Source of the DNA: Nitrosospira sp.
GTDB taxonomy: Bacteria; Pseudomonadota; Gammaproteobacteria; Burkholderiales; Nitrosomonadaceae
NCBI GenBank assembly: GCA_030453055.1
Contig: JAKDLC010000032.1
Span: forward strand, 1-12,126
Length of the DNA: 12,126 nucleotides
Direction: 5' to 3'
Numbering within the stretch: the first letter of the stretch is position 1; the number at the start of each line of letters is the position of its first letter. Positions 1 to 12,126 of this stretch are shown here, piece by piece. The notes below the pieces were generated by a model. It made no database searches. It worked only from the letters and a program-made list of their open reading frames with translations, and was not told where the DNA came from. Position numbers and translations under genes: made by a program.

Positions 1-155
1 GCAGTGTCATGGGGGTAGGGGGTATTTTGTTTCCAACAATAGTCTTTCACAGTAATTTGTTAATAGGCCACTATTCTAACGATTTTGTCCGTTTTGGTCT
101 GGTTATCATTTTTATGAGGCGTCAATCGTGAAGAAGTTTCCGTTTTCGGCCTGCA

Positions 156-794
156 ATGGGTGAACGGCAGAAGCAACTGCTCAAGCTGCTGCGCGGGAGC
201 AAGTCCGGCCTGAGTGTGGATGAGTTGGCGCAAGAGCTCGAGATCACGCGAAACGCGGTGCGGCAGCACCTGGCCTCCCTGGAGGCCGAAAGATTGGTGG
301 AGGCCGGCATCACGCGACCGTCAGGAGGAGGGCGTCCGCAGCAGCTATACATTCTTACCGAACTGGGCAAGGAGATGTCGCCGCGTCAATACTCTTGGCT
401 GGCGCAGTTAGTGGTGGCGTCGGTTCAGCGTGAAGGAGGCGCCGAAAAGAGGGGCAGGCGCATGAAAGAGATCGGTGTGAACGTTGCGCATCAGATACGC
501 AGCCAGTATCCGGGTCTCACCACGCACGAAGAGAAAGTCGAAAAGCTGGCCGAGGTAATGGACCTGCTTGGTTACAATGCGAGAAATGTGACAGTGCCCG
601 GTGGCGAGACCGTGATCGAAGCCGATAATTGCGTGTTTCACCCCATGGCGCAAAAAGACCTCGAGATTTGCAACATTGACAGGGGCTTGATGGGGACCTT
701 TACCGATAGTAAAGTTGAGCAACATGAATGCATGGCTCGCGGCGGAAACGTGTGCCGCTTCAAACTCGAGCCAAACGAGGATCAGCTACTCTAA
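156..794 (+). CDS. Winged-helix transcriptional regulator with four-cysteine (SufR-like) C-terminal domain
   Basis: 212-residue predicted cytoplasmic DNA-binding regulator. Residues about 5-60 form a DeoR/ArsR-type winged helix: LLKLL, then the HTH around VDELAQELEITRNAVRQHLA and a wing at GGGRPQQLY. The C-terminal half carries four cysteines, C159, C172, C192 and C200, spaced C-X12-C-X19-C-X7-C and ending in a CMARGGNVCRF segment. SufR repressors have the same architecture and share the first X12 spacing, so an Fe-S cluster or metal sensor is inferred; the later spacings differ, so it should not be called SufR. ATG156 is chosen because an in-frame TGA lies at 129-131 and the HTH begins at once. 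No clear Shine-Dalgarno precedes it, which suggests weak or leaderless initiation. It stands alone, 173 bp before the VOC gene on the same strand. Its targets are unknown; autoregulation or control of its neighbours is possible. Confidence 0.85.
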   Translation: MGERQKQLLKLLRGSKSGLSVDELAQELEITRNAVRQHLASLEAERLVEAGITRPSGGGRPQQLYILTELGKEMSPRQYSWLAQLVVASVQREGGAEKRGRRMKEIGVNVAHQIRSQYPGLTTHEEKVEKLAEVMDLLGYNARNVTVPGGETVIEADNCVFHPMAQKDLEICNIDRGLMGTFTDSKVEQHECMARGGNVCRFKLEPNEDQLL

Positions 795-843
795 ATTCCG
801 CCTGATCAAGGGCGTCACTTATATTCATCCGATGTCGCAATAT

Positions 844-863
844 TTTGCCGCTTTTTCGGCAAA
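844..863. other. Short perfect hairpin downstream of the regulator
   Basis: TTTGCCG at 844-850 pairs exactly with CGGCAAA at 857-863 around a CTTTTT loop. It lies about 50 bp after the regulator stop. Neither strand has a T-run after the stem, so it is not a textbook terminator. It could be an mRNA 3'-end structure or a protein-binding palindrome in the leader of the VOC gene. Confidence 0.35.
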
Positions 864-967
864 TAGAACAACTATCGGCCTTCAAAATCGTCACAATCTG
901 TCTCACCCAGTTATTTTTCGCTTCGATCTTCAAGTCCGACAGGCTGCTGACATAAAATGGGAGCACC

Positions 968-1453
968 ATGGACCAGAAAACGAAACCTTATATCGTCGGT
1001 ATCAATCACGTCGCGCTCGAAGTCGGAGATATTGAGGAAGCGCTGGCGTTCTATGCTCGCATCTTCACGTTCGAATTACGGGGGCGCGGCCAACGCGCCG
1101 CCTTCATCGACATGGGCGATCAGTTCATTGCGTTGAGTGAGGGGCGGTCGCAGAATGCGGACCACGACAGGCATTTCGGCCTCGTCGTCGATGACCGTTC
1201 GCGCGTGCGAGAACTCGCCGAAGCGGCGGGGGCGAAGATTCTGGAAGGCGCGACTCTTGACTTCCTCGACCCGTGGGGCAACCGCATTCAAGTGGTCGAG
1301 TACCGCGATCTGCAATTTACCAAGACCTCCGCCGTGCTGAAATTCATGGGACTGGACCTGGACAAGAGCGAAGAGGCACAAGCGGAACTGTGCAAGAAAG
1401 GAATCGAGCCGGCAACGGGCGGAGATTCCGCAGAGGTTCGAAAACCGCGATAA
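968..1453 (+). CDS. VOC (glyoxalase/bleomycin-resistance/dioxygenase fold) family protein
   Basis: 161 residues with one vicinal-oxygen-chelate module. The start GINHVALEVGDIEEALAFYARIF and the end FLDPWGNRIQVVEY are typical of the fold. Likely metal ligands are H14, H69 (in DRHFGLVVDD) and E111 (in QVVEYRD). The module would pair or dimerise to complete a metal site; the substrate cannot be told from sequence. After residue 115 there is a tail of about 45 residues (KFMGLDLDKSEEAQ...) that is charged and helical-looking and outside the core fold. Start ATG968 follows a GGGAGC ribosome binding site at suitable spacing. The HVA1-type gene follows after 16 bp, so the two are probably cotranscribed. 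Family is confident; a detoxification or stress role is only inferred. Confidence 0.88.
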   Translation: MDQKTKPYIVGINHVALEVGDIEEALAFYARIFTFELRGRGQRAAFIDMGDQFIALSEGRSQNADHDRHFGLVVDDRSRVRELAEAAGAKILEGATLDFLDPWGNRIQVVEYRDLQFTKTSAVLKFMGLDLDKSEEAQAELCKKGIEPATGGDSAEVRKPR

Positions 1454-1454
1454 C

Positions 1455-1467
1455 TGAGGACACCTCA
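1455..1467 (+). promoter_or_regulatory. Inverted repeat covering the ribosome binding site of the HVA1-type gene
   Basis: TGAGG-ACA-CCTCA is a perfect 5-bp stem with a 3-nt loop, 2 bp before the ATG at 1470 and 1 bp after the VOC stop. The Shine-Dalgarno GAGGA (1456-1460) lies in the left arm, so folding would hide it. Ribosomes finishing the upstream gene could open it, giving translational coupling. The stem is short, so the effect is uncertain. Confidence 0.35.
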
Positions 1468-1469
1468 TC

Positions 1470-1685
1470 ATGACTGCAAAATTCAAAGTTGGCGATCACG
1501 TGACCTGGAACTCGGAGGCCGGCCATGTCAGCGGCAAGATTATCAAGGTTCATACAAAAGATGCCGAATACAAGGGGCACACGCATCACGCAAGCCCGGA
1601 TGATCCACAGTATGAAATCAAAAGCGACAAGACCGACCACATCGCGATGCACAAAGGTACGGCGCTGAAGAAGACGCACACCTGA
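1470..1685 (+). CDS. HVA1/DUF2945-type small SH3/Tudor-like protein
   Basis: 71-residue, lysine- and histidine-rich protein. It opens with FKVGDHVTWNSEAGHVSGKIIKVHTKD, a small beta-barrel (SH3/Tudor-like) pattern, followed by PQYEIKSDKTDHIAMHKGTALKK. This matches the DUF2945 family, also called the hypervirulence-associated HVA1 TUDOR domain, and is about the family's full length. The biochemical role is not established; members often sit near stress and DNA-modification genes. There is no signal peptide or membrane segment, so it is probably cytoplasmic. It follows the VOC gene by 16 bp with a GAGGA ribosome binding site and is likely the last gene of that pair. Only 36 bp separate its stop from the stop of the convergent ASRT gene, and no clear terminator was seen there. 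Confidence 0.85.
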   Translation: MTAKFKVGDHVTWNSEAGHVSGKIIKVHTKDAEYKGHTHHASPDDPQYEIKSDKTDHIAMHKGTALKKTHT

Positions 1686-1721
1686 GAGATTTTCACTAAG
1701 GTACCTACGGCGCCTCAGAGA

Positions 1722-2096
1722 TCACGCCGGATAGGCAATCGTACTCATTAGCGCGAGTGCGGGCTGGCGAGAATCGAGCCGCGTATGCTGCACGACGATG
1801 GGAACGTCCGATTCGATTATGCTGGCATAATCCGTATCGTGCGGCACCGGTTCGGGTTCGGTAAGTTCATTGAAGCGAACGTGCTTGGTACGCAGTGCTT
1901 CAACGGTTATCCGGTACGGTCCTGCAGGTTCGCGGCTGGCAAAAAAAATGGTGACTTCGACATGCGCATCCTGATCGCCGCTGTTCAGGATGCAGATCGC
2001 ATCATGGCTCACCAGCGGCCGGGTGGCTCCGGTGCTGGCCGGTGGTATATAACCGTCGGCGACTACCCAGCGCTTATGTCCTAACGACTTGTTCAT
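1722..2096 (-). CDS. Sensory rhodopsin transducer (ASRT) family protein
   Basis: 124 residues, matching the length of the Anabaena sensory rhodopsin transducer (about 125) and recognisably similar throughout. The start HKRWVVADGYIPP, the centre HDAICILNSGDQDAHVEVTIFF, GPYRITVEALRTKHVRFNEL and the end DVPIVVQHTRLDSRQ..LMSTIAY are hallmark stretches. The Anabaena protein is a soluble tetrameric beta-sandwich that interacts with a retinal sensory rhodopsin. Comparative work has proposed that the wider superfamily binds small molecules, probably carbohydrates. No rhodopsin gene occurs here. It is the distal gene of the five-gene operon, starting 3 bp after the SDR stop, with a strong AGGAG at 2105-2109 inside the SDR end. 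A role as ligand-binding partner of the sugar-acid enzymes is inferred. Family assignment is firm; function is not. Confidence 0.9.
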   Translation of the reverse strand: MNKSLGHKRWVVADGYIPPASTGATRPLVSHDAICILNSGDQDAHVEVTIFFASREPAGPYRITVEALRTKHVRFNELTEPEPVPHDTDYASIIESDVPIVVQHTRLDSRQPALALMSTIAYPA

Positions 2097-2099
2097 CTA

Positions 2100-3152
2100 T
2101 CATTCTCCTGAAAACTTTCCATTATCCTGGCGGAGCCTCTTTCGCGTACTGCACTTCGATAGGGTCGGAAAACACGCGAAGGCAAGGGTTGCGCAAAGCA
2201 ATCCTATAATGATCGGCCCGCGATGGAGGGTTGCCCAAAGCTGTACCCCACCGGGCTTCGCACGATTGTCGAAGCGGCCATGAGCAGCGAAATCGCCGCT
2301 GACGGGCTTCCATAAGTTGTCGGGACGTGACGGGTCGGCCGCCTCGTTGTCCTGTTGTCCGGAATAACCCGTGCGGGCGAGATAACGATCGAGCAAGCCG
2401 GGAATGAATTTGTTTGCCCAGATCGCTTTCAATGATGGCCATTCCACATAAACTTCTCGCCGCTTGTGGTGCGCCGCCCAGAAAATAGCCTTTGCCGCCG
2501 TTTCCGGCTGAAAAATGGGGGGCACCGGTTGCGGCCTCATGGGCATATGGTTTTTACCCCAGTCGAATTGTGGCGTATTGAGTGCCGGCATCTGTACCAT
2601 GGTCAGGCGAACATTGCTGCGCTCATGCAGCAGTTCGCTGCGCAACGCGTCAGTGAATCCTCGAATCGCGAACTTCGCGCCACAATAAGGCGCTTGCAAC
2701 GGAATCGCTCGATAAGCGAGCGCCGATCCAACCTGCACGATGACACCGTGATCGTGCTTCTTCATGCGCTTTAGGGCGGCCATCGTGCCATACACGGCGC
2801 CCAGATAGGTGACTTCAGTAGCTCGCTTGTAGTCTTCGGCGGAAATCTCGCTGAACGGAGAATAAATTGTCGCCATCGCGTCGTTAACCCACACATCAAA
2901 GGGCCCGAATGCGGCTTCGACCGCCGCTGCCGCTGCTTCGACCTGCGTTGCGTCGGCTACATCGGCAACGCAGGCGATTGCTTGGCCGCCCAGATCAAGC
3001 ACTTCGGCCGCCGCTTGCTCAAGGCGCTCCCGGTCTCGTGCGATGAGACCAATGCAAGAACCTCTCCGGGCGAACTCCCGTACCGTTGCACGGCCAATAC
3101 CTGCGCTTGCACCGGTGATCACAACAATTTGCGGCTTACGACCTGTTCTCAT
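2100..3152 (-). CDS. Short-chain dehydrogenase/reductase with C-terminal membrane segment
   Basis: 350-residue classical SDR with a long extension. The Rossmann motif TGASAGIG is at residues 13-20, D64 lies in the CVADVAD stretch, NDAMA at 90-94 replaces the usual NNAG, catalytic S143 is in VGSALAY, and Y156/K160 lie in APYCGAKFA. It should therefore be an active NAD(P)-dependent alcohol/carbonyl oxidoreductase; R21 and the downstream ARD could favour NADP. Residues about 260-310 are a polar linker (RPDNLWKPVSGDFAAHGRFD), followed by a hydrophobic stretch near 312-331 and a basic tail, predicting a C-terminal membrane anchor. Core SDRs are about 250 residues, so roughly 100 are extra; soil-bacterial relatives with similar tails are familiar. 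The start overlaps the previous gene's stop as ATGA, with AAGGAG 5 bases upstream, so the two are translationally coupled. The substrate is unknown. Confidence 0.9.
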   Translation of the reverse strand: MRTGRKPQIVVITGASAGIGRATVREFARRGSCIGLIARDRERLEQAAAEVLDLGGQAIACVADVADATQVEAAAAAVEAAFGPFDVWVNDAMATIYSPFSEISAEDYKRATEVTYLGAVYGTMAALKRMKKHDHGVIVQVGSALAYRAIPLQAPYCGAKFAIRGFTDALRSELLHERSNVRLTMVQMPALNTPQFDWGKNHMPMRPQPVPPIFQPETAAKAIFWAAHHKRREVYVEWPSLKAIWANKFIPGLLDRYLARTGYSGQQDNEAADPSRPDNLWKPVSGDFAAHGRFDNRAKPGGVQLWATLHRGPIIIGLLCATLAFACFPTLSKCSTRKRLRQDNGKFSGE

Positions 3153-6049
3153 GATCTCTCCTTCGCGTCAGCCTGACTTTGCATCGCCATGTGAATCACG
3201 TCGGCTATATGCAAACCTTGCCGATTCGTTGTTTGCGCAATCTGTTCTCGGCAGCTATAGCCGTTGGTCACTATCAACGTAGCGTCATCGGCGGCTCGCA
3301 CGGCAGGCAGCAAAACCAATTCGCCAACTTGAATCGAAACGTCGTATTTGTCTTTGTCGAAGCCAAATGAACCGGCCATACCGCAACAGCCCGAATCGAG
3401 ACTTTCCAGATCGACCCCCATATTTTCAAGCACAGCTTCTTCGCCTTCCATTTCAATAAGCGCTTTTTGATGGCAATGACCGTGTAGCAAGGCTTTCCGT
3501 GCAAAACGCGGATAAGGAAATTCAGGCGCCTTCTTCAGAAGAAACTCGCTGAAAAAATAGGTCTGCCGGCTTAACCTCTTGGCGACTTCGTCTTCAGGGA
3601 AAAGGTTCATCAATTCGTTGCGGAAAACGGCAACGCAAGCGGGCTCAAGACCGACGACCGGTACGCCATTGTTGATGTCCTGCTGCATATCGGCGAGTAT
3701 CCGGCGCAGTTGCTTCTTCGCTTGATCAAGCATGCCGAAATCGTACAGAGGCCGCCCGCAGCAAACATGTTTTGCCGGTACGCGCACGAGAAAGCCGGCG
3801 GCTTCCAATACGGAAACGGCGGCTTTGGCGGTTTCCGGGTGAAAATGATTGTTAAACGTATCCGGCCAAAGGATGACGTGCGGCTTACCCTGGTTGCCCG
3901 GCGGACGTTGTTTGAACCAATGTAAAAATGTTTCCGGTGCGAACTCTGGAACGCGGCGCTGCTGGGGCAGGCCGGCCGTATTTTTTGCAAGGGCGCTCAA
4001 ACCGGGCGTTTGCGTGAGCCAGTTGACCGTTCGTGGGGCGTAAGCCGCGAGCCGCGCCCAGCGATTAATCCAGCCAAATACGTAGGCCTGGCGGGGCCGT
4101 CTTTTGTGCTCGTAATAGTGTGACAAAAATTCCGCCTTATAGGTCGCCATATCGACCTTTACCGGACAATCACCCAGGCAGCCTTTGCAGGCGAGGCATA
4201 GGTCGAGCGATTCTTTCATTTCCTCGCTTTGCCACATATCCTTGATGACTTCCCCGCGCATGGTTTCGAACAACAAGCGCGCACGGCCGCGAGTAGAATG
4301 TTTTTCTTCGCGCGTTGCCTTATAGCTGGGGCACATGGTTTGCAAGTGCTGCTGGCGGCAGTTGCCGATGCCGACACAACGCAATGTTACGCGGCCAAAG
4401 TTGTCCTTATCCTTTGGATACTGAAAGTGTGTTGCCGGTTGCGGCGGATTGTAGCCTGTGCCCAGGCGCAAATTTTCTATAGGCGAATAGGCATCCACGA
4501 TTTTCCCGGGATTCATCTTCCAGTCCGGATCCCAGATCGATTTGAATTCGCGGAAGGCCTGGATCAATTCTTCGCCAAACATTTTTGGCAGAAATTGCGC
4601 TTTCGATTGGCCATCGCCATGTTCGCCCGATAACGAGCCGCCATAGCTCACCACCAAGTCCGCCGCCTCATTCAAAAACGAATGAAAGGCCTGGATGCCA
4701 TCATGCGTTTGAAGATCAAAATCAATGCGGGTGTGGATGCAGCCCTGGCCAAAATGCCCGTACAGGTCACATTCGTAGCCAAATTTTTCCAGCAGTTTAC
4801 GAAAATCGCGTAAATACGCGCCGACTTTATCCGGAGGGACGGCGGCGTCTTCCCACCCTTCCCAGGTAATCTCTTTGTTGGGTACGTGCGCAGTCGCTCC
4901 CAGCCCGGATTCGCGCACTTTCCAGACCATTCTTTCTTCTTTCGGGTCATCGAACAGTTTCATTGCCGGCGCATTGCCGGTTTGCTTCAAAGCGTCCATG
5001 CAGGCAGTCGCGCGTGCCTCGGATTCGACTTTATCCTTGCCGCCAAATTCTGCGAGCAGCCAGCCACCGCCTTCGGGAAGCATCTGCGTATTTTCCAGAT
5101 GCAGCCCGATTGCCTGCATATCCGCAATCAGACGATCATCTATGCCTTCAAGGCCAATGGGGTCAAACTTGAGAATATCGGGGACATGATCGCCGGCGCT
5201 ATATACATCAGGATAGCCGAGTACCAGGAGCGTCCGGCCGGGCGGGCTGTAGACGAGACGCAGTTTCGCCTCGAGAATGACGACACATGTACTTTCAGTG
5301 CCGACCAAGGCGCGGGCGACGTCAAAACCATTTTCTGGCAATAGATCGTCCAGATTATAGCCCGACACGCGTCGTGGTATTTTTGGGTAGCGTGCGCGAA
5401 TCTCATTGGCTTCCCGATCGCACAACGCCTTCAATTGCGCATATATCTCGCCCCGCCGCCCGCCCGCTGAGACGATACGTGCAAATTCCGCGGCATCGGT
5501 CCTGCTGACGGTCATGCGTGTGCCATCATACAGCAGTACATCCAGAGAAATGACGTTGTCAACCGTCTTGCCGCCCATTACCGAATGTACGCCGCACGAG
5601 TTATTGCCAATCATGCCGCCCAGCGTATTATGGCTATGCGTCGAAGGATCCGGCGCGAAAGTCAGGTGATGTTTTTCGGCGGCGTGCCGCAAATCGTCGA
5701 GCACACAACCGGGCTCGACACGCGCGATTTTCTTCACCGGGTCCAGCTCGAGGATGCGATTGAGATACTTGGACATATCCATGACGACCGCCACGTTACA
5801 GCACTGGCCTCCAAGGCTGGTGCCGCCACCGCGCGAGAGCACCGGCGCGCCATGTTTGCGGCAGGCGGCAACCGTCGCGATAACGTCATCAACAGATTTG
5901 GGGATGACCACACCGATTGGAACCTGGCGATAATTGGAGGCATCCGTTGCATAAAGCGCACGGTCGCCATCGTCGAAACGTACCTCACCCCTAATCCGGT
6001 CTCTTAACTCGGCGGCTAGAATCTGCGCATCGAGAGGCGAAGTTGTCAT
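3149..6049 (-). CDS. FAD-linked 2-hydroxyacid dehydrogenase/Fe-S oxidoreductase (YdiJ-type)
   Basis: 966 residues, close to E. coli YdiJ (about 1018). Residues about 40-265 are the FAD-binding (PCMH/VAO) domain, with RGGGTSLGGQ at 73-82 and a THSHNTLGGMIGNNSCG stretch near 137-153. Residues about 275-520 are the FAD-oxidase C-terminal domain, with YGHFGQGCIHTR, SGEHGDGQSK and NPGKIVD. Cysteines C558, C564 and C573 and then C618/C621/C624/C628 (CLACKGCLGDCP) suggest Fe-S clusters. CCG motifs at 763-765 and 888-890, with HGHCHQ at 856-861, mark the heterodisulfide-reductase-like region. Such fusions oxidise D-lactate, glycolate or D-2-hydroxyglutarate and pass electrons to the respiratory chain; the substrate here is undetermined. 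The start is 44 bp after the dehydratase stop, with only a weak GGGCAA-like ribosome binding site. All key motifs look intact. Confidence 0.92.
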   Translation of the reverse strand: MTTSPLDAQILAAELRDRIRGEVRFDDGDRALYATDASNYRQVPIGVVIPKSVDDVIATVAACRKHGAPVLSRGGGTSLGGQCCNVAVVMDMSKYLNRILELDPVKKIARVEPGCVLDDLRHAAEKHHLTFAPDPSTHSHNTLGGMIGNNSCGVHSVMGGKTVDNVISLDVLLYDGTRMTVSRTDAAEFARIVSAGGRRGEIYAQLKALCDREANEIRARYPKIPRRVSGYNLDDLLPENGFDVARALVGTESTCVVILEAKLRLVYSPPGRTLLVLGYPDVYSAGDHVPDILKFDPIGLEGIDDRLIADMQAIGLHLENTQMLPEGGGWLLAEFGGKDKVESEARATACMDALKQTGNAPAMKLFDDPKEERMVWKVRESGLGATAHVPNKEITWEGWEDAAVPPDKVGAYLRDFRKLLEKFGYECDLYGHFGQGCIHTRIDFDLQTHDGIQAFHSFLNEAADLVVSYGGSLSGEHGDGQSKAQFLPKMFGEELIQAFREFKSIWDPDWKMNPGKIVDAYSPIENLRLGTGYNPPQPATHFQYPKDKDNFGRVTLRCVGIGNCRQQHLQTMCPSYKATREEKHSTRGRARLLFETMRGEVIKDMWQSEEMKESLDLCLACKGCLGDCPVKVDMATYKAEFLSHYYEHKRRPRQAYVFGWINRWARLAAYAPRTVNWLTQTPGLSALAKNTAGLPQQRRVPEFAPETFLHWFKQRPPGNQGKPHVILWPDTFNNHFHPETAKAAVSVLEAAGFLVRVPAKHVCCGRPLYDFGMLDQAKKQLRRILADMQQDINNGVPVVGLEPACVAVFRNELMNLFPEDEVAKRLSRQTYFFSEFLLKKAPEFPYPRFARKALLHGHCHQKALIEMEGEEAVLENMGVDLESLDSGCCGMAGSFGFDKDKYDVSIQVGELVLLPAVRAADDATLIVTNGYSCREQIAQTTNRQGLHIADVIHMAMQSQADAKERS

Positions 6050-6093
6050 GATTGTATTGCCCGATAGGGTTGGCTAAACGGCCAGTTCGATGT

Positions 6094-7218
6094 TCATACC
6101 GCATACCGTGCCGCATCCGCGCGCTTGAACTCCAGGCCCAGTCCGGGACGTGTCAGGTCCGGAGCCAGCAAACCGTCCCTGGGTTCGATTGCTCCGTCAA
6201 ATAGCATCCTTTCTATCCGGACATGATCGTAAAAATATTCCAGGTGGCAGACCGGCGTCGCCGCGCAGCACGGATGGATGTGGATCGACGGCGCGCAGTG
6301 ACTGGATAACGGTAGATGAAATCCCTCGCATAGAGCCGCCGCCTGCATGAAACCGGTAATGCCCGCGCACCGGGTCGCGTCCGCCTGGAGCACATCAATG
6401 GCTTCTGCCTGAAGCATGCGGCGAAAATAACCGCTTTCGTAACCGTATTCCCCCGCGCTGATGTCCATCTCCGGCGGCGCTCTGTCGCGTATTAGCCGCA
6501 AGCCCTCGAGATCATCGCTTGAGACCGGTTCTTCAAACCACGACACACCGTATTCCGCGAATGAAAATGCCATGGCCAATGCCTGTTTGCGCGAGTACGC
6601 ACCGTTGGCGTCGACAAAGAGTTCCGTATCCTCACCGATCGCCTCACGCGCGGCAGTGACGCGCGTGATATCTTTATCCGGTTCGCGTCCGACCTTCATT
6701 TTGACGCGGGTAATTCCGCTCGAGGCCCAATCGGCAAGCTGTTTTCGCAATTCGGCAAGGCTGTAGGAGGTGAAACCACCGCTTCCATAGATCGGCACCG
6801 CAGTCCGTACGGGGCCCAACAGGGAAACCAGCGGCAGGCCGAGAATACGCGCCTTGAGATCCCACAGCGCGTTGTCGACTGCTGCGATCGCCATTGAACA
6901 AATGCCGGGCCGTCCCAGATTACGGATGGAAGCAACCATGGCGTTCCAGCAATCGCTGACGTCGAGCGCGTACCGCCCGACAACGATATCCGTTAGCGTA
7001 TCGTGAATCAACTTTGCCGTAGCGGTATCGGCATAGGTAAAGCCGATACCGGTTTTCCCCCCTCCATCGATCTCCGCTATTACCAAAGTTGTCGCATTCC
7101 ATTTGAGCGTGCCATCGGACTCGGGTGTGGCGGTGGGAATGGTGAAGGCCGATACTCGTACCCCCGCAATACGCGGCCCGCCGTCTTTGAGCCGCGTCAG
7201 AATGGTCGGGGCATTCAT
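6094..7218 (-). CDS. Mandelate racemase/muconate lactonizing enzyme family protein (likely acid-sugar dehydratase)
   Basis: 374-residue enolase-superfamily protein of normal length with an N-terminal capping domain and a TIM barrel. Active-site residues line up with mandelate racemase at a near-constant offset: K173/K175 (VKMKVG), metal ligands D203 (FVDANG), E229 (FEEP) and E257 (SAGEYGY), the D280-H307 dyad (LQAD and SSH) and E327 (HLEYFY). This full set defines the mandelate racemase subgroup, most of whose members dehydrate aldonic or aldaric acids to 2-keto-3-deoxy acids. The substrate is not readable. The start ATG7218 lies 11 bp after the ThDP-enzyme stop. Its ribosome binding site is weak (GCGAGCG), so translation is probably coupled. 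Next to the 2-hydroxyacid dehydrogenase, it suggests oxidation of a sugar acid. The family is certain; dehydratase versus racemase is inferred. Confidence 0.92.
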   Translation of the reverse strand: MNAPTILTRLKDGGPRIAGVRVSAFTIPTATPESDGTLKWNATTLVIAEIDGGGKTGIGFTYADTATAKLIHDTLTDIVVGRYALDVSDCWNAMVASIRNLGRPGICSMAIAAVDNALWDLKARILGLPLVSLLGPVRTAVPIYGSGGFTSYSLAELRKQLADWASSGITRVKMKVGREPDKDITRVTAAREAIGEDTELFVDANGAYSRKQALAMAFSFAEYGVSWFEEPVSSDDLEGLRLIRDRAPPEMDISAGEYGYESGYFRRMLQAEAIDVLQADATRCAGITGFMQAAALCEGFHLPLSSHCAPSIHIHPCCAATPVCHLEYFYDHVRIERMLFDGAIEPRDGLLAPDLTRPGLGLEFKRADAARYAV

Positions 7219-7229
7219 TTTGGCGCTCG

Positions 7230-8996
7230 CTACGCGAAAATCTGCTTGATAGACTGCCTGATTATGCCGGCTGAATCCGGATCGCCGTGAAGTATCGCCG
7301 ACATATACGCTCGCGCCTGTTTGAATGTTATGTGTGGCGGCAATGGCGGCACATCCGGATCAGCGCAGACCTCGAGAACCACTGGCCGGTTCGCGCTTAG
7401 GGCGTTATCCCAGGCGTTGCCAAGTTCTTCGGGTTGATCAACAAATATACCTTGCAGACCGATCAATTCCGCGTAGCGCGCATAGGGAAAGTCGGGTAGT
7501 TCCTGAGAAGCCTCGAATTTCGGATCGCCTTCCATGGCGCGCTGTTCCCATGTAACCTGATTAAGATCACGATTGTTCAGAACCATCACTACCAGACGCG
7601 GATTACTCCAGCGTTTCCAATACTTGCCGATGGTAATCAGTTCGTTCAGGCCGTTCATTTGCATTGCGCCATCCCCTACCATGGCGATTACCACTCGATC
7701 CGGATGTGCGAACTTGGCTGAAATAGCATAGGGCACGCCTGGCCCCATGGTCGCGAGTCCCCCCGAGAGTGAGGCCATCATGCCCTGACGAATTTTCAAA
7801 TCGCGCGAATACCAGTTTGCCGAAGAGCCCGAATCGCAAGTGAGAATGCAGTTATCCGGCAGGCGTGGGGATAGCTCCCAGAAGACCCTTTGCGGGTTAA
7901 TTGGATTGGCTGACTCCATTGCCCGCGCTTCCATCGTTTTCCACCATCGCGCGACGTTTCTCTCAATCCGGTTGCGCCAGTCACGATCCTTTTTTCTTTT
8001 CAATAACGGTATCAGCAGTTTTAACGTTTCCGAGCTGTCGCCGACCAGATTTACTTCCATCGGGTAACGGATGCTGAGCATACGACCATTGATGTCGATC
8101 TGGACGCCGCGCGCATGGCCTTCCTCGGGCAGAAATTCGGAATAGGGGAAGCTCGATCCAATCATCAATAGCGTATCGCATCGCATCATCATGTCGTAGC
8201 TCGGCTTTGTGCCCAGCAGACCGATCGAGCCGGTCACAAAAGGCAGGTTGTCGGGAACCGCCGCCTTGCCCAGCAATGCTTTGGCGATGCCGGCGCCGAG
8301 CAGATCGGCTACCTCGATCACCTCCGACGTTGCATTCAGCGCGCCCGCTCCCGCCAATATGGCTACTTTCGAGCCTGTATTCAAAGCGTCCGCAGCGCGT
8401 TGCAAATCCTCAGCCCGCGGCGCGACGCGCGGCGCCTTATAGCCAATTCCTGAATGTATCGTGCCGTGCTCGCGCGGAGGCTTTTCAGCATCCATTTCCT
8501 GGATATCGTTGGGCACGATGATGCAGCACACATTGCGCTCAACCTGCGCAATACGCATGGCGCGGTCGACGATATGGCGCATTTGGGCGGGTGTGGAAAC
8601 CATGTGCACGTATTCATGCGCAACGTCTTTAAACAACGAAATAAGGTCGACTTCCTGCTGGTAGTTACCCCCCAGCGCTGCCCGTTTCTGCTGGCCGACA
8701 ATAGCGACCACAGGTTGATGATCGAGTTTGGCGTCATACAGGCCATTGAGCAAATGAATCGCGCCAGGACCCGAGGTGGCGAGGCAAACCCCTACTTCAC
8801 CCGTGAATTTGGCGTGGGCGCATGCCATGAATGCGGCCATTTCTTCATGCCGCACCTGGATAAAATCGATCTTGTCGGAAGCGCGATCCAGCGCTCCCAT
8901 GATGCCGTTTATACCGTCGCCGGGATAACCAAAGATGCGTTTGACTCCCCATTCAGACAAACGCCGCATGAGAAACTCACTGACATTTTCCTTCAT
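7230..8996 (-). CDS. Thiamine diphosphate-dependent enzyme (pyruvate oxidase/acetolactate synthase family)
   Basis: 588 residues with the three-domain ThDP fold. The N-terminal PYR domain has FGYPGDGING (22-31) and the catalytic glutamate E51 in QVRHEEMAAF. The central domain spans about 190-330. The C-terminal PP domain has the ThDP/Mg motif from GDGAMQMNG at 441 to the NN pair at 474-475. Relatives include PoxB pyruvate oxidase, acetolactate synthase and many enzymes of unknown substrate, all decarboxylating or transferring 2-oxoacids; no closer call is safe. An in-frame GTG 13 codons upstream (9035) has no ribosome binding site, whereas ATG8996 has AGGAGA 7 bases before it, so 8996 is chosen. 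This is the first gene of the five-gene minus-strand operon and would handle the 2-oxoacid formed by the dehydratase or dehydrogenase. Confidence 0.9.
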   Translation of the reverse strand: MKENVSEFLMRRLSEWGVKRIFGYPGDGINGIMGALDRASDKIDFIQVRHEEMAAFMACAHAKFTGEVGVCLATSGPGAIHLLNGLYDAKLDHQPVVAIVGQQKRAALGGNYQQEVDLISLFKDVAHEYVHMVSTPAQMRHIVDRAMRIAQVERNVCCIIVPNDIQEMDAEKPPREHGTIHSGIGYKAPRVAPRAEDLQRAADALNTGSKVAILAGAGALNATSEVIEVADLLGAGIAKALLGKAAVPDNLPFVTGSIGLLGTKPSYDMMMRCDTLLMIGSSFPYSEFLPEEGHARGVQIDINGRMLSIRYPMEVNLVGDSSETLKLLIPLLKRKKDRDWRNRIERNVARWWKTMEARAMESANPINPQRVFWELSPRLPDNCILTCDSGSSANWYSRDLKIRQGMMASLSGGLATMGPGVPYAISAKFAHPDRVVIAMVGDGAMQMNGLNELITIGKYWKRWSNPRLVVMVLNNRDLNQVTWEQRAMEGDPKFEASQELPDFPYARYAELIGLQGIFVDQPEELGNAWDNALSANRPVVLEVCADPDVPPLPPHITFKQARAYMSAILHGDPDSAGIIRQSIKQIFA

Positions 8997-9062
8997 CTCG
9001 CCATCTCCTGTTCGATCTTGCGCCCCTATGCGCACACTCGTTTTGGGTCTCGGCTCAAACGC

Positions 9063-9161
9063 CTATGTAACGGATAGTGCCGCCGTGCTCTCCTCATTTC
9101 CGTTCGCTAACGCACTCACAATTTCTTCACAGGTTCCAACTACCCGGTAAGGCGTAGCCAT
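9063..9161 (-). CDS. Possible small ORF or gene remnant in the operon leader
   Basis: Reading the minus strand gives 32 residues, MATPYRVVGTCEEIVSALAN and onward, ending in LSVT and a TAG. The frame stays open about 12 codons further upstream (KERLPFIIRQNVA) before a TAG. The composition is protein-like rather than random-looking. No Shine-Dalgarno precedes the ATG, and no family was recognised. It lies 66 bp before the ThDP-enzyme start on the same strand, so it could be a leader peptide, the tail of a decayed gene, or chance. Confidence 0.25.
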   Translation of the reverse strand: MATPYRVVGTCEEIVSALANGNEESTAALSVT

Positions 9162-9201
9162 TGCCACATTCTGGCGAATGATGAATGGAAGACGTTCTTT
9201 G

Positions 9202-9254
9202 GCTATGCGCTATGTGCTATGTGGATGGGCAGATGGGCAGGCGCGCAGATGCGC
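9202..9254. repeat. Short tandem-repeat tract
   Basis: GCTATGC, GCTATGT, GCTATGT (9202-9222) are three adjacent 7-mers. They are followed by GATGGGCA twice (9224-9239) and by related units ending GATGCGCA. This is a compact, microsatellite-like tract upstream of the five-gene operon. Slippage could vary its length between strains; no function is shown. Confidence 0.6.
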
Positions 9255-9289
9255 AAAGGGAACATCGAGCACCCGAGCGCCGTTAATTC

Positions 9290-9307
9290 CCGGCGCCGCC
9301 GGCGCCG
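9290..9307. repeat. GC-only palindrome made of two identical 9-mers
   Basis: CCGGCGCCG occurs twice in direct succession, and bases 9291-9307 (17 nt) are also nearly or fully self-complementary. It could form a strong hairpin or bind a dimeric protein. There is no T-run beside it, so it is not a standard terminator. Confidence 0.55.
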
Positions 9308-9390
9308 ATCTGTTCGATGAAGGTTATTGATACCGGGAAGATAGGAAGCGCATTCCGGCTGTAAACTGCGGGAATTTGTATGACGGAGGT

Positions 9391-9434
9391 GAAAAAAAGA
9401 TGTATCCCAAGCAGGTATTGGCCATGCTTGGGAT
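9391..9434 (-). terminator. Candidate terminator for the porin transcript
   Basis: A perfect 10-bp inverted repeat, ATCCCAAGCA (9404-9413) and TGCTTGGGAT (9425-9434), has an 11-nt loop. On the minus strand the stem is followed by ACATC and then seven T residues (complement of the A-run at 9392-9398). It lies about 125 bp past the porin stop in the right orientation. The 5-nt gap before the T-run and the AT-containing stem make it weaker than a textbook intrinsic terminator. Confidence 0.4.
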
Positions 9435-9468
9435 CAAATACAACGAGCTGAACAGGATTGCTAGCTAG
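9400..9468 (+). CDS. Doubtful 22-residue ORF with an excellent ribosome binding site
   Basis: ATG9400 follows GGAGGT (9385-9390) at 9 bases, a near-ideal Shine-Dalgarno and spacing. It encodes MYPKQVLAMLGIKYNELNRI followed by AS and a TAG. The first 12 codons fall on the hairpin described at 9404-9434, and the A-run between site and start is the T-run of that hairpin on the other strand, so the signal may be coincidental. The peptide is amphipathic and resembles a helix-turn-helix fragment, but no family was recognised. It could be a real small protein, a truncated gene or an artefact. Confidence 0.25.
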   Translation: MYPKQVLAMLGIKYNELNRIAS

Positions 9469-9559
9469 TGTAGTGAGTCAGAGATATCGTACATAACCGA
9501 TTAGAAACCGGCTGCAAAGCGTATGACCGGTTCCTGTTTCGCTGCTGTTCCGGCAGGCG

Positions 9560-11224
9560 TTAGAAAGCGACCTGATATTGCACGACGAACATCCCCCTGC
9601 TGCTGGTTTTCACGATATCCCCTCCTGCGTTTGCATTGAATATGGGTCTGTTCTGATAGTTGAAAGTGAGCTTGCTGTTATGCCCTTTTAACAACCAGTT
9701 TACCCCGCCGTTGAATACGTTACTTTGATCGTGCAGGCGTTCCCAGTTGGCGCTTGTCAGAGAAGCGTAGAGCTGGAGCTGGCCATTATTCCCGGGAATC
9801 CAATTTTTCGGCAACAAGTAACCGATCTGGGAATACCATAATTCACCCGTGCCAAACATCGCATAGAGATTGCCAGGCCCGTTGAAACTTCCTCCCGGAC
9901 CAATACCATTGGCCGAATTCGGCCCATGCCCATTCATCCGAAGATAATTCGGGCCATAATCGTAGACGAAATAACCAATATAAGCAGAGATAGCCGTTTC
10001 CTTCGACTTGTCCACCGCGGCGTCCAGGTAGCCGGCAACCGAATAGTGATTCATATCATGATACTGGGCGCTTGCTGGCGCGAGGCCGGTCCACGTGGCG
10101 TTTTTCTCGGTGATAAAGCCGGCTTCCAGATTCAGTATGTCCTTCTTGCCCAGATAGGTTCCCTGCATATAATCGTTCGTCATCGGTTCCTTATCCCAGA
10201 AGTTCCAGTAGAACATGCCGCCGTATTGTTGTTTATGGCCTATCCGGGCGAAATCGGCAATGTTTGGCGAGATGCCGGGATTTGCAAGCCCGTCTGTTGT
10301 GACCGGGAACGAGTCGTGCGCCGCTATCCGATAGCGAAACCTGCTGATCTGGCCGCGAAGCCAAACACCCAGGTTCCTGTTGAACAGCTGCGTCCTTTCC
10401 GTGGCGTATTGGGCTCCAACGGGAACATCCAGTGTCATGATGGTACTCACGCTGGGGGAGGTGAAGCGGGACAAACCATTGGCCATCGAAAGGCCGCCGC
10501 CCACAATCATCTGATATCCCTCTGTCAGCCGCAACTCAGCAAATGCATCGTGAAAATAGGGCATGGCTGCAATATGCCTGTTGTCGTTCTGCTGAGATAG
10601 AAAATTGAAATTGTTTATCCCGTATTGGGTGTAAAAGTATACGCGGTCGGTAAGCTGTCCCTGCAACACGAAGCGGGCCCGCCGAAGGGCGACATCGGTC
10701 GTATCGTCTACAGGCTGGTCTTGTACGAGCGATCCCGGATTATTCTGTATAAACCGACCCTGGGCCTGCAGTAACATGCCAAATTTGAGGTACTGGCTTC
10801 CGTCGCCGTTCAGATTGTATTTAAAGGGATCCTTTTCCTTCCAGTTTGCAAAGCCATATCCTCCCGGCCCCGCCCCGACGTTTTTCAATGGAACATCTCG
10901 AAGGAGGGCTCCTCCCTCCTTACCCGTCGCCGTAGTCGGCGGTGTCCCGCCTGCAGCGGGACTGGGTACGGCTGTACCGGGCGCGGCGGTACTGGGCACG
11001 GGTTTCTTTGGTGTATCCGAGACTTTCTCAAAAGATCCCATGCGTACCCGGCCTTCTCCGGGTTCCGAATAAATCTGCTTGGTTTTTGTGTCAACATATA
11101 AATCGATGGTATATCCCTTGGATGACGGGTTCGCTGAATCTGAAGGCGGTAGCTTGTCGTCCGCCTGCAGAGAAGTTGAAAATAAGAAACAGCAACAAGC
11201 TATCAACGAAAGACTAGGCTTCAT
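9560..11224 (-). CDS. Outer-membrane porin, phosphate-selective porin O/P-like
   Basis: 554 residues. A signal peptide of about 21 residues (MKPSLSLIACCCFLFSTSLQA) precedes ADDK. Residues 36-66 (GYTIDLYVDTKTKQIYSEPG) are a small conserved-looking segment, followed by a Pro/Ala/Thr-rich linker (about 70-105). From about residue 135 onward aromatic-alternating strands (YLKFGMLLQAQGRF, RRARFVLQGQL, YFYTQYGINNF) continue to the terminal ...FVVQYQVAF, whose C-terminal Phe is the outer-membrane assembly signal. This fits the OprP/OprO-type barrel (Pfam Porin_O_P); ion specificity cannot be assigned. GGAG (11233-11236) lies 8 bases before the ATG. Nothing is cotranscribed downstream before 9391-9434, so it appears monocistronic. 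The Pro-rich pre-barrel region is longer than in classical OprP. Confidence 0.85.
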   Translation of the reverse strand: MKPSLSLIACCCFLFSTSLQADDKLPPSDSANPSSKGYTIDLYVDTKTKQIYSEPGEGRVRMGSFEKVSDTPKKPVPSTAAPGTAVPSPAAGGTPPTTATGKEGGALLRDVPLKNVGAGPGGYGFANWKEKDPFKYNLNGDGSQYLKFGMLLQAQGRFIQNNPGSLVQDQPVDDTTDVALRRARFVLQGQLTDRVYFYTQYGINNFNFLSQQNDNRHIAAMPYFHDAFAELRLTEGYQMIVGGGLSMANGLSRFTSPSVSTIMTLDVPVGAQYATERTQLFNRNLGVWLRGQISRFRYRIAAHDSFPVTTDGLANPGISPNIADFARIGHKQQYGGMFYWNFWDKEPMTNDYMQGTYLGKKDILNLEAGFITEKNATWTGLAPASAQYHDMNHYSVAGYLDAAVDKSKETAISAYIGYFVYDYGPNYLRMNGHGPNSANGIGPGGSFNGPGNLYAMFGTGELWYSQIGYLLPKNWIPGNNGQLQLYASLTSANWERLHDQSNVFNGGVNWLLKGHNSKLTFNYQNRPIFNANAGGDIVKTSSRGMFVVQYQVAF

Positions 11225-11368
11225 TAAATTTACTCCGCTTTAAAGATCGAGGCTGAGGTGGGAAATCCAAGGATTAAATAATATGAATATTAGGATTTTT
11301 TATTTACGAGAACATAACATGGGAAAGGTGAAGAAAATGTCATCTGTAAGTGAAAAATCAGTGATTTC

Positions 11369-11398
11369 TTTGTAATGAAAATGTCAGGAGAAAGTCAA
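11369..11398 (-). promoter_or_regulatory. Possible sigma-70-type promoter for the porin gene
   Basis: On the minus strand TTGACT (11398-11393) is followed after 18 bases by TACAAA (11374-11369). The -35 is a 5/6 match to TTGACA and the -10 a 4/6 match to TATAAT. It would leave a leader of about 135 bases before the porin ATG, with the palindrome AAATCAGTGATTT just downstream of the -10 as a possible operator. This is a by-eye match only. Confidence 0.3.
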
Positions 11399-11525
11399 GA
11401 ATTTGTGAAGACATACTCGCTGGGGTTTATGCCGCAATTTTTTTGCGGATTCAGGCTTAATGCATGCAATGACCTGTAAGGGTATCTTTCCCAGTGAATT
11501 TCACTTCCCCCGGAGAGGGACGTTG

Positions 11526-11555
11526 CAGGATATCGGTGGCGCCTGCCGCATCCTG
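11526..11555. other. Long interrupted hairpin downstream of the secreted-protein gene
   Basis: CAGGAT (11526-11531) pairs with ATCCTG (11550-11555). Inside it CGGTGG (11534-11539) pairs with CTGCCG (11543-11548) using two wobble pairs. It lies about 47 bp past the stop of the secreted-protein gene. There is no T-run on either side, so it may be a REP-like 3'-end stabiliser rather than an intrinsic terminator. Confidence 0.35.
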
Positions 11556-11601
11556 TCACGAGCTCCCTATACTTGGTTCCGTTTATTTCCCGTCAAATCT
11601 T

Positions 11602-12030
11602 CTATCCGCCGCCAGCTCCTCCCGCAGAGATATTGGTGTCCACATCCGGGTTTGGCCCAGGAGGTCTGTCGCGTCCGTAAAAGAGCTTGATAATTCTGCG
11701 GAGAAAGCTTTCCTGTTCCGGGGCTGGTTGTTCGCATGCGTTAGCTTCCTGTTCTGCGCATTTCTCGTTTGACGAAGCGTCAGGCCCGTCATGCCTGCCA
11801 TGACCGGCCGCGTCGACATCCTTTTTTTGCGGCGTTTTCCCCCGATCTTCCGCGGAATCTTCCCTTCCAGACTGTGCTGCCTTGAAGCCACGCGTTTCAG
11901 GCATCGAGGCACTGGCTTGTTCTTCCGAGCCGCCCTGCGCGTGAGATATGCCGGCTGCGGTAAAAATCAGGATGCCGACAAGCACCGCCGGCCGAGCCAA
12001 AGCGTGTTGAAGGTTGAAATTATGTTTCAT
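11602..12030 (-). CDS. Small secreted protein of unknown function with Gly-rich tail
   Basis: 142 residues; no known family was recognised. Residues 1-31 form a signal peptide (basic start, LARPAVLVGILIFTAAGISHA, likely cut before Q32). The mature part is polar, charged and probably disordered over residues 32-105, with two cysteines, C91 and C99, that could form a disulfide. Residues 108-119 (ESFLRRIIKLFYGR) look like an amphipathic basic helix, followed by DRPPGPNPDVDTNISAGGAGGG to the end. The mature protein is therefore periplasmic or exported. AGGAG (12037-12041) lies 6 bases before the ATG. An upstream gene ending 50 bp earlier shares the same tail motif, so these are tandem paralogues in one transcript. 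The repeated pattern suggests the tail is functional. Confidence 0.75.
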   Translation of the reverse strand: MKHNFNLQHALARPAVLVGILIFTAAGISHAQGGSEEQASASMPETRGFKAAQSGREDSAEDRGKTPQKKDVDAAGHGRHDGPDASSNEKCAEQEANACEQPAPEQESFLRRIIKLFYGRDRPPGPNPDVDTNISAGGAGGG

Positions 12031-12080
12031 GATAATCTCCTGCCATCAATTCAGTGAAAGGGCGAAAGGAAGTACCGCGA

Positions 12081-12126
12081 TCAGCCTCCCGCACCGCGTG
12101 CTGAAATATTTTCGTCCATGTCCCGG
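12081..12126 (-). CDS. C-terminal end of a paralogous secreted protein (partial, cut by window edge)
   Basis: The minus strand entering from the window edge reads RDMDENISARGAGG and a TGA at 12083-12081. This closely matches the end of the next gene downstream (PDVDTNISAGGAGGG), sharing D-x-D-x-N-I-S-A-x-G-A-G-G. With only 14 codons visible the rest cannot be described, but the match in frame, strand and position just before a stop makes it convincing as the 3' end of a tandem duplicate. The next ATG starts 50 bp downstream. Confidence 0.6.
   Translation of the reverse strand, partial: RDMDENISARGAGG

Follow-up and report, generated by a model that had tools for sequence, protein, structure and literature searches.

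The window analysed here, a 12,126-nucleotide stretch of the genome of Nitrosospira sp. (NCBI GenBank assembly GCA_030453055.1, contig JAKDLC010000032.1, positions 1 to 12,126 of the forward strand), contains a gene for an ASRT-family protein (PF07100). We find that this gene closes an operon of five genes with a probable role in sugar-acid oxidation, that ASRT genes are linked to the same enzymes in five phyla, and that the predicted pocket is identical between ASRT proteins encoded in such operons and those encoded beside rhodopsins. Judging from these family matches and neighbourhoods, we moderately favour a reading in which ASRT is a sugar- or sugar-acid-binding accessory protein that would control a partner. 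The operon comprises the following features:

1722..2096, minus strand: ASRT-family protein (PF07100), 124 amino acids, with the conserved predicted-pocket residues H31, C35, H72, Q103, R106 and D108.
2105..2109, minus strand: ribosome binding site AGGAG, within the end of the SDR gene, 8 nt ahead of the ASRT ATG.
2100..3152, minus strand: SDR oxidoreductase of the PRK07109 subfamily (479.5 bits against a cut-off of 264), carrying a hydrophobic stretch at the C terminus.
3149..6049, minus strand: fusion of FAD-binding_4, FAD-oxidase_C, 4Fe-4S and CCG domains (FAD/FeS), D-2-hydroxyacid dehydrogenase type (YdiJ model 528 bits, under the cut-off of 1350).
6094..7218, minus strand: MR/MLE enolase-superfamily protein, a probable sugar-acid dehydratase (nearest PDB chain 3cyj, 446 bits, labelled merely MR/MLE-like).
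7230..9035, minus strand: thiamine diphosphate (ThDP)-dependent enzyme, PRK08273 family (1099.8 bits, cut-off 724; the nearest PDB chains are PoxB and pyruvate oxidases).

The ASRT protein is a single-domain β-sandwich whose residues 6-123 match the PF07100 profile over positions 2-119 of 119 with 182.2 bits (curated cut-off 25), and whose residues 1-122 align with the sequence of Anabaena ASRT (PDB: 2ii7) with 180.7 bits. The Anabaena protein (PDB: 2ii7, 2ii8, 2ii9 and 2iia) resembles it in the full-length match, in identity (~61%), in the conserved residues and in the fold. The family signature SHExxCxxN, which lines the predicted cleft (De Souza 2009, PMC2739507), is present at residues 30-38 as SHDAICILN, with D in place of E and with S30, H31, C35 and N38 kept. 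H31, N38, H72, Q103, R106 and D108 are invariant in all 104 canonical ASRT proteins compared and C35 occurs in 97% of them; none of these seven residues varies among the 7 rhodopsin-linked or the 31 module-linked rows of the alignment. Thermotoga maritima TM1070 (PDB: 1nc7) belongs to the same family and keeps the residues aligned with H31, C35, N38, H72, R74, Q103, R106 and D108 of the window protein, despite a match of only 67 bits; in its pocket, ethanediol contacts the conserved H and C (De Souza 2009, PMC2739507). We also observe a second ASRT-like gene by or near the canonical one at three loci (L013:12281-12622, L010:10061-10420 and L086:11578-11943), in which H31, C35 and H72 are replaced; the products are possible subunits of a mixed tetramer.

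On the minus strand, the genes form a co-directional cluster in the order ThDP, MR/MLE, FAD/FeS, SDR and ASRT, with spacings of 11 bp, 44 bp, a 4-bp overlap and 3 bp, respectively, and this tight spacing suggests that all five would be co-transcribed. The initial annotation had proposed a full-length ASRT-like protein as the last gene after four metabolic enzymes, with its own ribosome binding site 3 bp past the previous stop, and the coordinates, the profile match, the family matches and the AGGAG and ATG at the junction bear this out. Its description of the operon as one of sugar-acid/2-hydroxyacid oxidation stands as a fair label at the level at which the enzymes are assigned, that of the family. 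The ThDP and SDR proteins score over their cut-offs, whereas the FAD protein and the MR/MLE protein, which reaches 204 bits against the NCBIfam talarate/galactarate dehydratase model (cut-off 500), fall far under theirs and are therefore taken as superfamily members and not as YdiJ or talarate/galactarate dehydratase. The protein of 3cyj, the best PDB match of the MR/MLE protein, presumably comes from Rubrobacter. The hydrophobic C-terminal stretch of the SDR protein, found to a varying degree among orthologues at ASRT loci, is a possible membrane anchor.

The linkage between ASRT and the four enzymes (the module) is conserved. We compared the 80 loci most like the query, from at least 586 confirmed ASRT stretches, by tblastn, requiring 55% identity of a ThDP orthologue and 50% of an orthologue of MR/MLE, FAD or SDR. 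Orthologues were found at 21/80 (ThDP), 19/80 (MR/MLE), 16/80 (FAD) and 26/80 (SDR) loci; at least three of the four genes occur at 16/80 and all four at 9/80, among them Methylomicrobium sp. RS1 (L019), Frateuria terrea (L088), Paucimonas lemoignei (L029) and Noviherbaspirillum autotrophicum (L049). ThDP, MR/MLE or FAD is present at 27/80 loci, distributed over Pseudomonadota (21), Chloroflexota (3), Actinomycetota, Acidobacteriota and Myxococcota (1 each), and the order and strand of the module genes vary. Where 5 kb is available on each side of ASRT (53 loci), the counts are 18 with ThDP, MR/MLE or FAD and 15 with at least three of the four genes.

Samples of genomes drawn up differently reveal the same association. 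In a phylum sample of 397 genomes, selected independently of similarity, ASRT occurs in five, and all five have a sugar context adjoining it: a FAD orthologue in the window and in G357, ThDP, MR/MLE and SDR in G483, and, from a second context described below, GH13 and LLM in G272 and G422. The FAD protein is matched at E 1e-150 in 33/397 genomes, with at least 57% identity in three only (the window, G357 and G543) and 32-38% in the rest shown. In an order sample of 201 genomes around a Methylobacter genome, taken as Methylococcales, the FAD orthologue (E 1e-190) occurs in 8 and ASRT in 12, and every one of the 8 FAD genomes carries ASRT (Fisher p 8.6e-12); after removal of seven already-known ASRT carriers, the counts are 3/194 and 5/194, with both in 3/3 (Fisher p 8.3e-6). 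FAD and ASRT lie within a few kb of each other in six of the eight genomes. They lie on separate contigs in G102, where one contig ends close by, and in G111 a partial FAD match lies on a contig other than that of ASRT. Two further genomes of this sample under the FAD threshold, G105 (L020) and G656 (L185), have partial MR/MLE and FAD matches near an intact ASRT.

A second sugar context recurs at the 80 loci, as counted from clustered neighbour genes, among which ASRT was left unplaced at L028, L029, L049 and L058. GH13 occurs at 17, GH15 at 14 and an LLM flavoenzyme at 12 loci (17, 15 and 12 by tblastn), with GH13 at most 1 kb from ASRT in 15/17 cases and LLM in 7/12. Representative GH13 and GH15 proteins match treS and trehalase models, respectively, under the cut-offs, and the LLM representative matches TIGR03885 over its cut-off. 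Within 1 kb of ASRT there is also a glucose-dehydrogenase-type gene at 3 loci and a 6-phosphogluconate-dehydrogenase-type gene at 2. Together, the module and the GH13/GH15/LLM context cover 52/80 loci, and these contexts all appear to deal with glucose and the products of its oxidation. A trehalose-synthase-like GH13 together with a TIGR03885-type LLM stands by ASRT in cyanobacteria and Burkholderiales (L027, L033, L045, L052, L064, L073 and L187-L190).

The rhodopsin partner of the Anabaena protein was not found here. The Anabaena gene adjoins a rhodopsin gene, according to the accessible text of PMC3198991, while the window ASRT gene adjoins metabolic enzymes; PF01036 detected no rhodopsin among the nine window proteins scanned or in the genome to which the window belongs (G000; 2.50 Mb in 446 contigs, Nitrosospira-type). 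At 80.34% completeness this genome may have a missed rhodopsin gene, and none of 14 control genomes matched in the same search, which on its own is therefore not proof of absence; the same model does detect rhodopsins in other genomes. The initial annotation had called the operon rhodopsin-free and proposed a genome-wide check for rhodopsins, together with a count of ASRT neighbours among MR/MLE, YdiJ-type and ThDP enzymes, and both results agree with it: the available genome yields no rhodopsin, and the enzyme linkage is conserved.

The 80 loci come from 79 genomes, and PF01036 matched 6 of the 78 searched (that of L041 was left out). In three of these the rhodopsin gene lies directly upstream of ASRT (Scytonema L025, Plectonema L053 and Rivularia L090); in the remaining three, no rhodopsin was found inside the ASRT locus sequence. 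Of 243 genomes in an order sample around the Plectonema genome, 14 carry ASRT and 29 a rhodopsin match (27 of these over the cut-off). Four carry both, and in each of them the rhodopsin gene is immediately upstream of ASRT on the same strand. Genomes with both are not significantly in excess in this sample (p 0.07), and the signal is one of adjacency, not of co-occurrence. Six cyanobacterial genomes besides Anabaena PCC 7120 have a rhodopsin directly upstream of ASRT (L025, L053, L090, L193, L194 and L195). The accessible text of PMC3198991, from 2011, restricts the association to PCC 7120, which the further pairs in these samples do not uphold. We note that the row nearest to the PCC 7120 protein is that of L068, which has no rhodopsin; the PCC 7120 protein itself is therefore not among the other paired proteins.

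All seven rhodopsin-linked proteins in the tree, that of Anabaena included, fall inside a 12-member set of cyanobacterial proteins whose support is not strong (SH-aLRT 82), and a single origin of the rhodopsin-linked proteins is not rejected. The other five members of this set have no adjoining rhodopsin, save for a 54-residue hint upstream of ASRT in L084 (E 0.08) that is too weak to count, and in the four of their genomes that were searched none was found, drafts being liable to miss genes. One of these rhodopsin-less ASRT proteins, that of L068, is 98% identical to the Anabaena protein. In L025 the rhodopsin gene is broken, only its last two thirds being recognisable with a TGA inside the match, and the ASRT gene is intact. 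In the samples examined, the rhodopsin pairing is therefore confined to one cyanobacterial group, and ASRT can outlast a broken rhodopsin.

In the phylogenetic tree, the window ASRT groups with a Nitrosospira copy, a Nitrosomonas copy and Methylococcales proteins (10 rows, SH-aLRT 98), and the module of the window has the same order as the Methylococcales loci L019 and L022, at 73-83% identity per protein. This grouping and identity suggest horizontal exchange, in either direction, between the window lineage and methanotrophs. A contaminant contig was considered and judged unlikely: a 90% identical MR/MLE copy and an 87% identical ASRT copy are labelled Nitrosospira sp., and the G+C content of the operon (0.558) resembles that of the genus loci L011-L013 (0.528-0.559). 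A full-length FAD orthologue is found only in the genome of the window and in G085 (57%) among G000, G012, G003, G016, G020, G057 and G085; G020 has a sub-threshold ASRT fragment containing a stop.

From these neighbourhoods and residues, we propose that the soluble ASRT-type β-sandwich would act as an accessory to a widespread module (ThDP, MR/MLE, FAD/FeS and SDR) for the oxidation of sugars or sugar acids. It would probably bind a sugar or sugar acid of the pathway in the conserved H31/C35/H72/Q103/R106/D108 region, with glucose, gluconolactone and gluconate as the leading candidate ligands, and would tune a partner protein by contact. The initial annotation had likewise suggested that the protein may bind a pathway intermediate and signal or regulate, a sensible reading to which the results lend partial support. 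Rhodopsin would then have recruited ASRT later, in one cyanobacterial group, with the pocket residues unchanged.

Several observations weigh against this proposal. ASRT is patchy: 7/101 relatives have a match, and among 22 further listed members of the genus three (G003, G012 and G016) score over the cut-off. The nearest named ASRT, from another Nitrosospira and 87% identical, has no module genes beside it and comes from a genome without a FAD orthologue, and ASRT is present without the module in L016. Conversely, the ThDP-MLE-FAD-SDR cluster is complete in G543, a genome that lacks ASRT, which counts against a strict tie. Neither sugar context was found at 28/80 loci (8 of them in the rhodopsin-related cyanobacterial group, 4 with an SDR orthologue only, and some on short contigs), and, since the 80 loci were kept for their similarity to the query, their fractions do not describe the ASRT family. 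Finally, promoter binding and DNA looping are reported for Anabaena ASRT in the accessible text of PMC8660804 and PMC3198991, which would be another mode of action.

An alternative that we consider unlikely is that ASRT is itself a sugar enzyme, for example an aldose mutarotase or an aldonolactonase, that speeds a spontaneous step, its rhodopsin link being a side role. The ionisable residues H31, H72, R106 and D108 are invariant in all contexts (C35 in 97%) and also kept in TM1070. Free aldoses and lactones could be produced or consumed by the neighbours (TreS-like GH13, trehalase-like GH15 and the glucose-dehydrogenase type), and in Thermotoga, whose genome lacks rhodopsins, they are a sugar isomerase, an aldolase and a kinase, unlike the window module (De Souza 2009, PMC2739507). 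The absence of ASRT from at least one complete module (G543) would also suit a helper of a spontaneous reaction. A lead to rhamnose mutarotase was dropped as a separate candidate and kept merely within this alternative; TM1070, TM107 and DUF1362 are absent from the accessible text of PMC3870299.

That ASRT is a small DNA-binding regulator of its own operon, in line with the gene regulation proposed for the Anabaena protein, seems to us quite improbable. The promoter binding and DNA looping mentioned above speak for it, and its position as last gene would suit feedback control. However, Pfam recognised no known DNA-binding domain in the protein, the conserved residues line a predicted small-molecule cleft, and De Souza 2009 (PMC2739507) favours protein-protein control. 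Finally, it is very doubtful that ASRT merely travels with mobile sets of stress or sugar genes, functionally unrelated to the module enzymes: the patchy spread, the module-less copies such as L016 and the 28 loci in neither context would fit, but the same enzymes recur in differing gene order, on differing strands and in several phyla, and co-occur with ASRT in samples independent of similarity.

Three further features of the window lie outside the operon:

156-794, plus strand: winged-helix regulator with a weak SufR resemblance and a C-terminal MetOD1 match.
1470-1685, plus strand: Hva1_TUDOR-domain protein (PF11160), 71 amino acids, facing the ASRT gene.
9560-11224, minus strand: porin-like protein of the outer membrane, encoded upstream of the operon and weakly resembling ExtI, under the cut-off.

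The winged-helix regulator may or may not control the operon. No copy of the Hva1_TUDOR gene was found near the other ASRT loci examined.

The role of the ASRT family has been a question since at least 2009, when De Souza, Iyer and Aravind (PMC2739507) described rhodopsin-less orthologues as well as this neighbourhood and put forward a sugar-binding or sensing hypothesis, the wider carbohydrate-binding role to which the initial annotation had correctly referred. The context and the core idea are therefore not new; the neighbourhood of 2009 is of the same type as that of the window, in a different phylum and with no mention of the SDR. In the literature covered, which mostly excludes subscription journals, no title or abstract was found on an assay of a rhodopsin-free ASRT member. 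The present analysis contributes the counts, describes the GH13-LLM context and its order across phyla, and shows that the pocket residues are uniformly conserved. It also adds the rhodopsin pairs outside PCC 7120 in one cyanobacterial group, one member of which has a broken rhodopsin. Should the whole family consist of sugar enzymes (aldose mutarotases or aldonolactonases), for which we see only a slim chance, the Anabaena transducer would be such an enzyme that a rhodopsin had taken as partner without loss of the enzyme's active site, and a light signal and the glucose/gluconate pool would meet in one protein. The module of the window is one of two recurring sugar contexts of ASRT, and the presence of the arrangement in several phyla points to a light-sensor partner being exceptional in the family. 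With two sugar contexts, and with the rhodopsin pairing limited to one cyanobacterial group, the focus for ASRT thus moves from photobiology to sugar oxidation.
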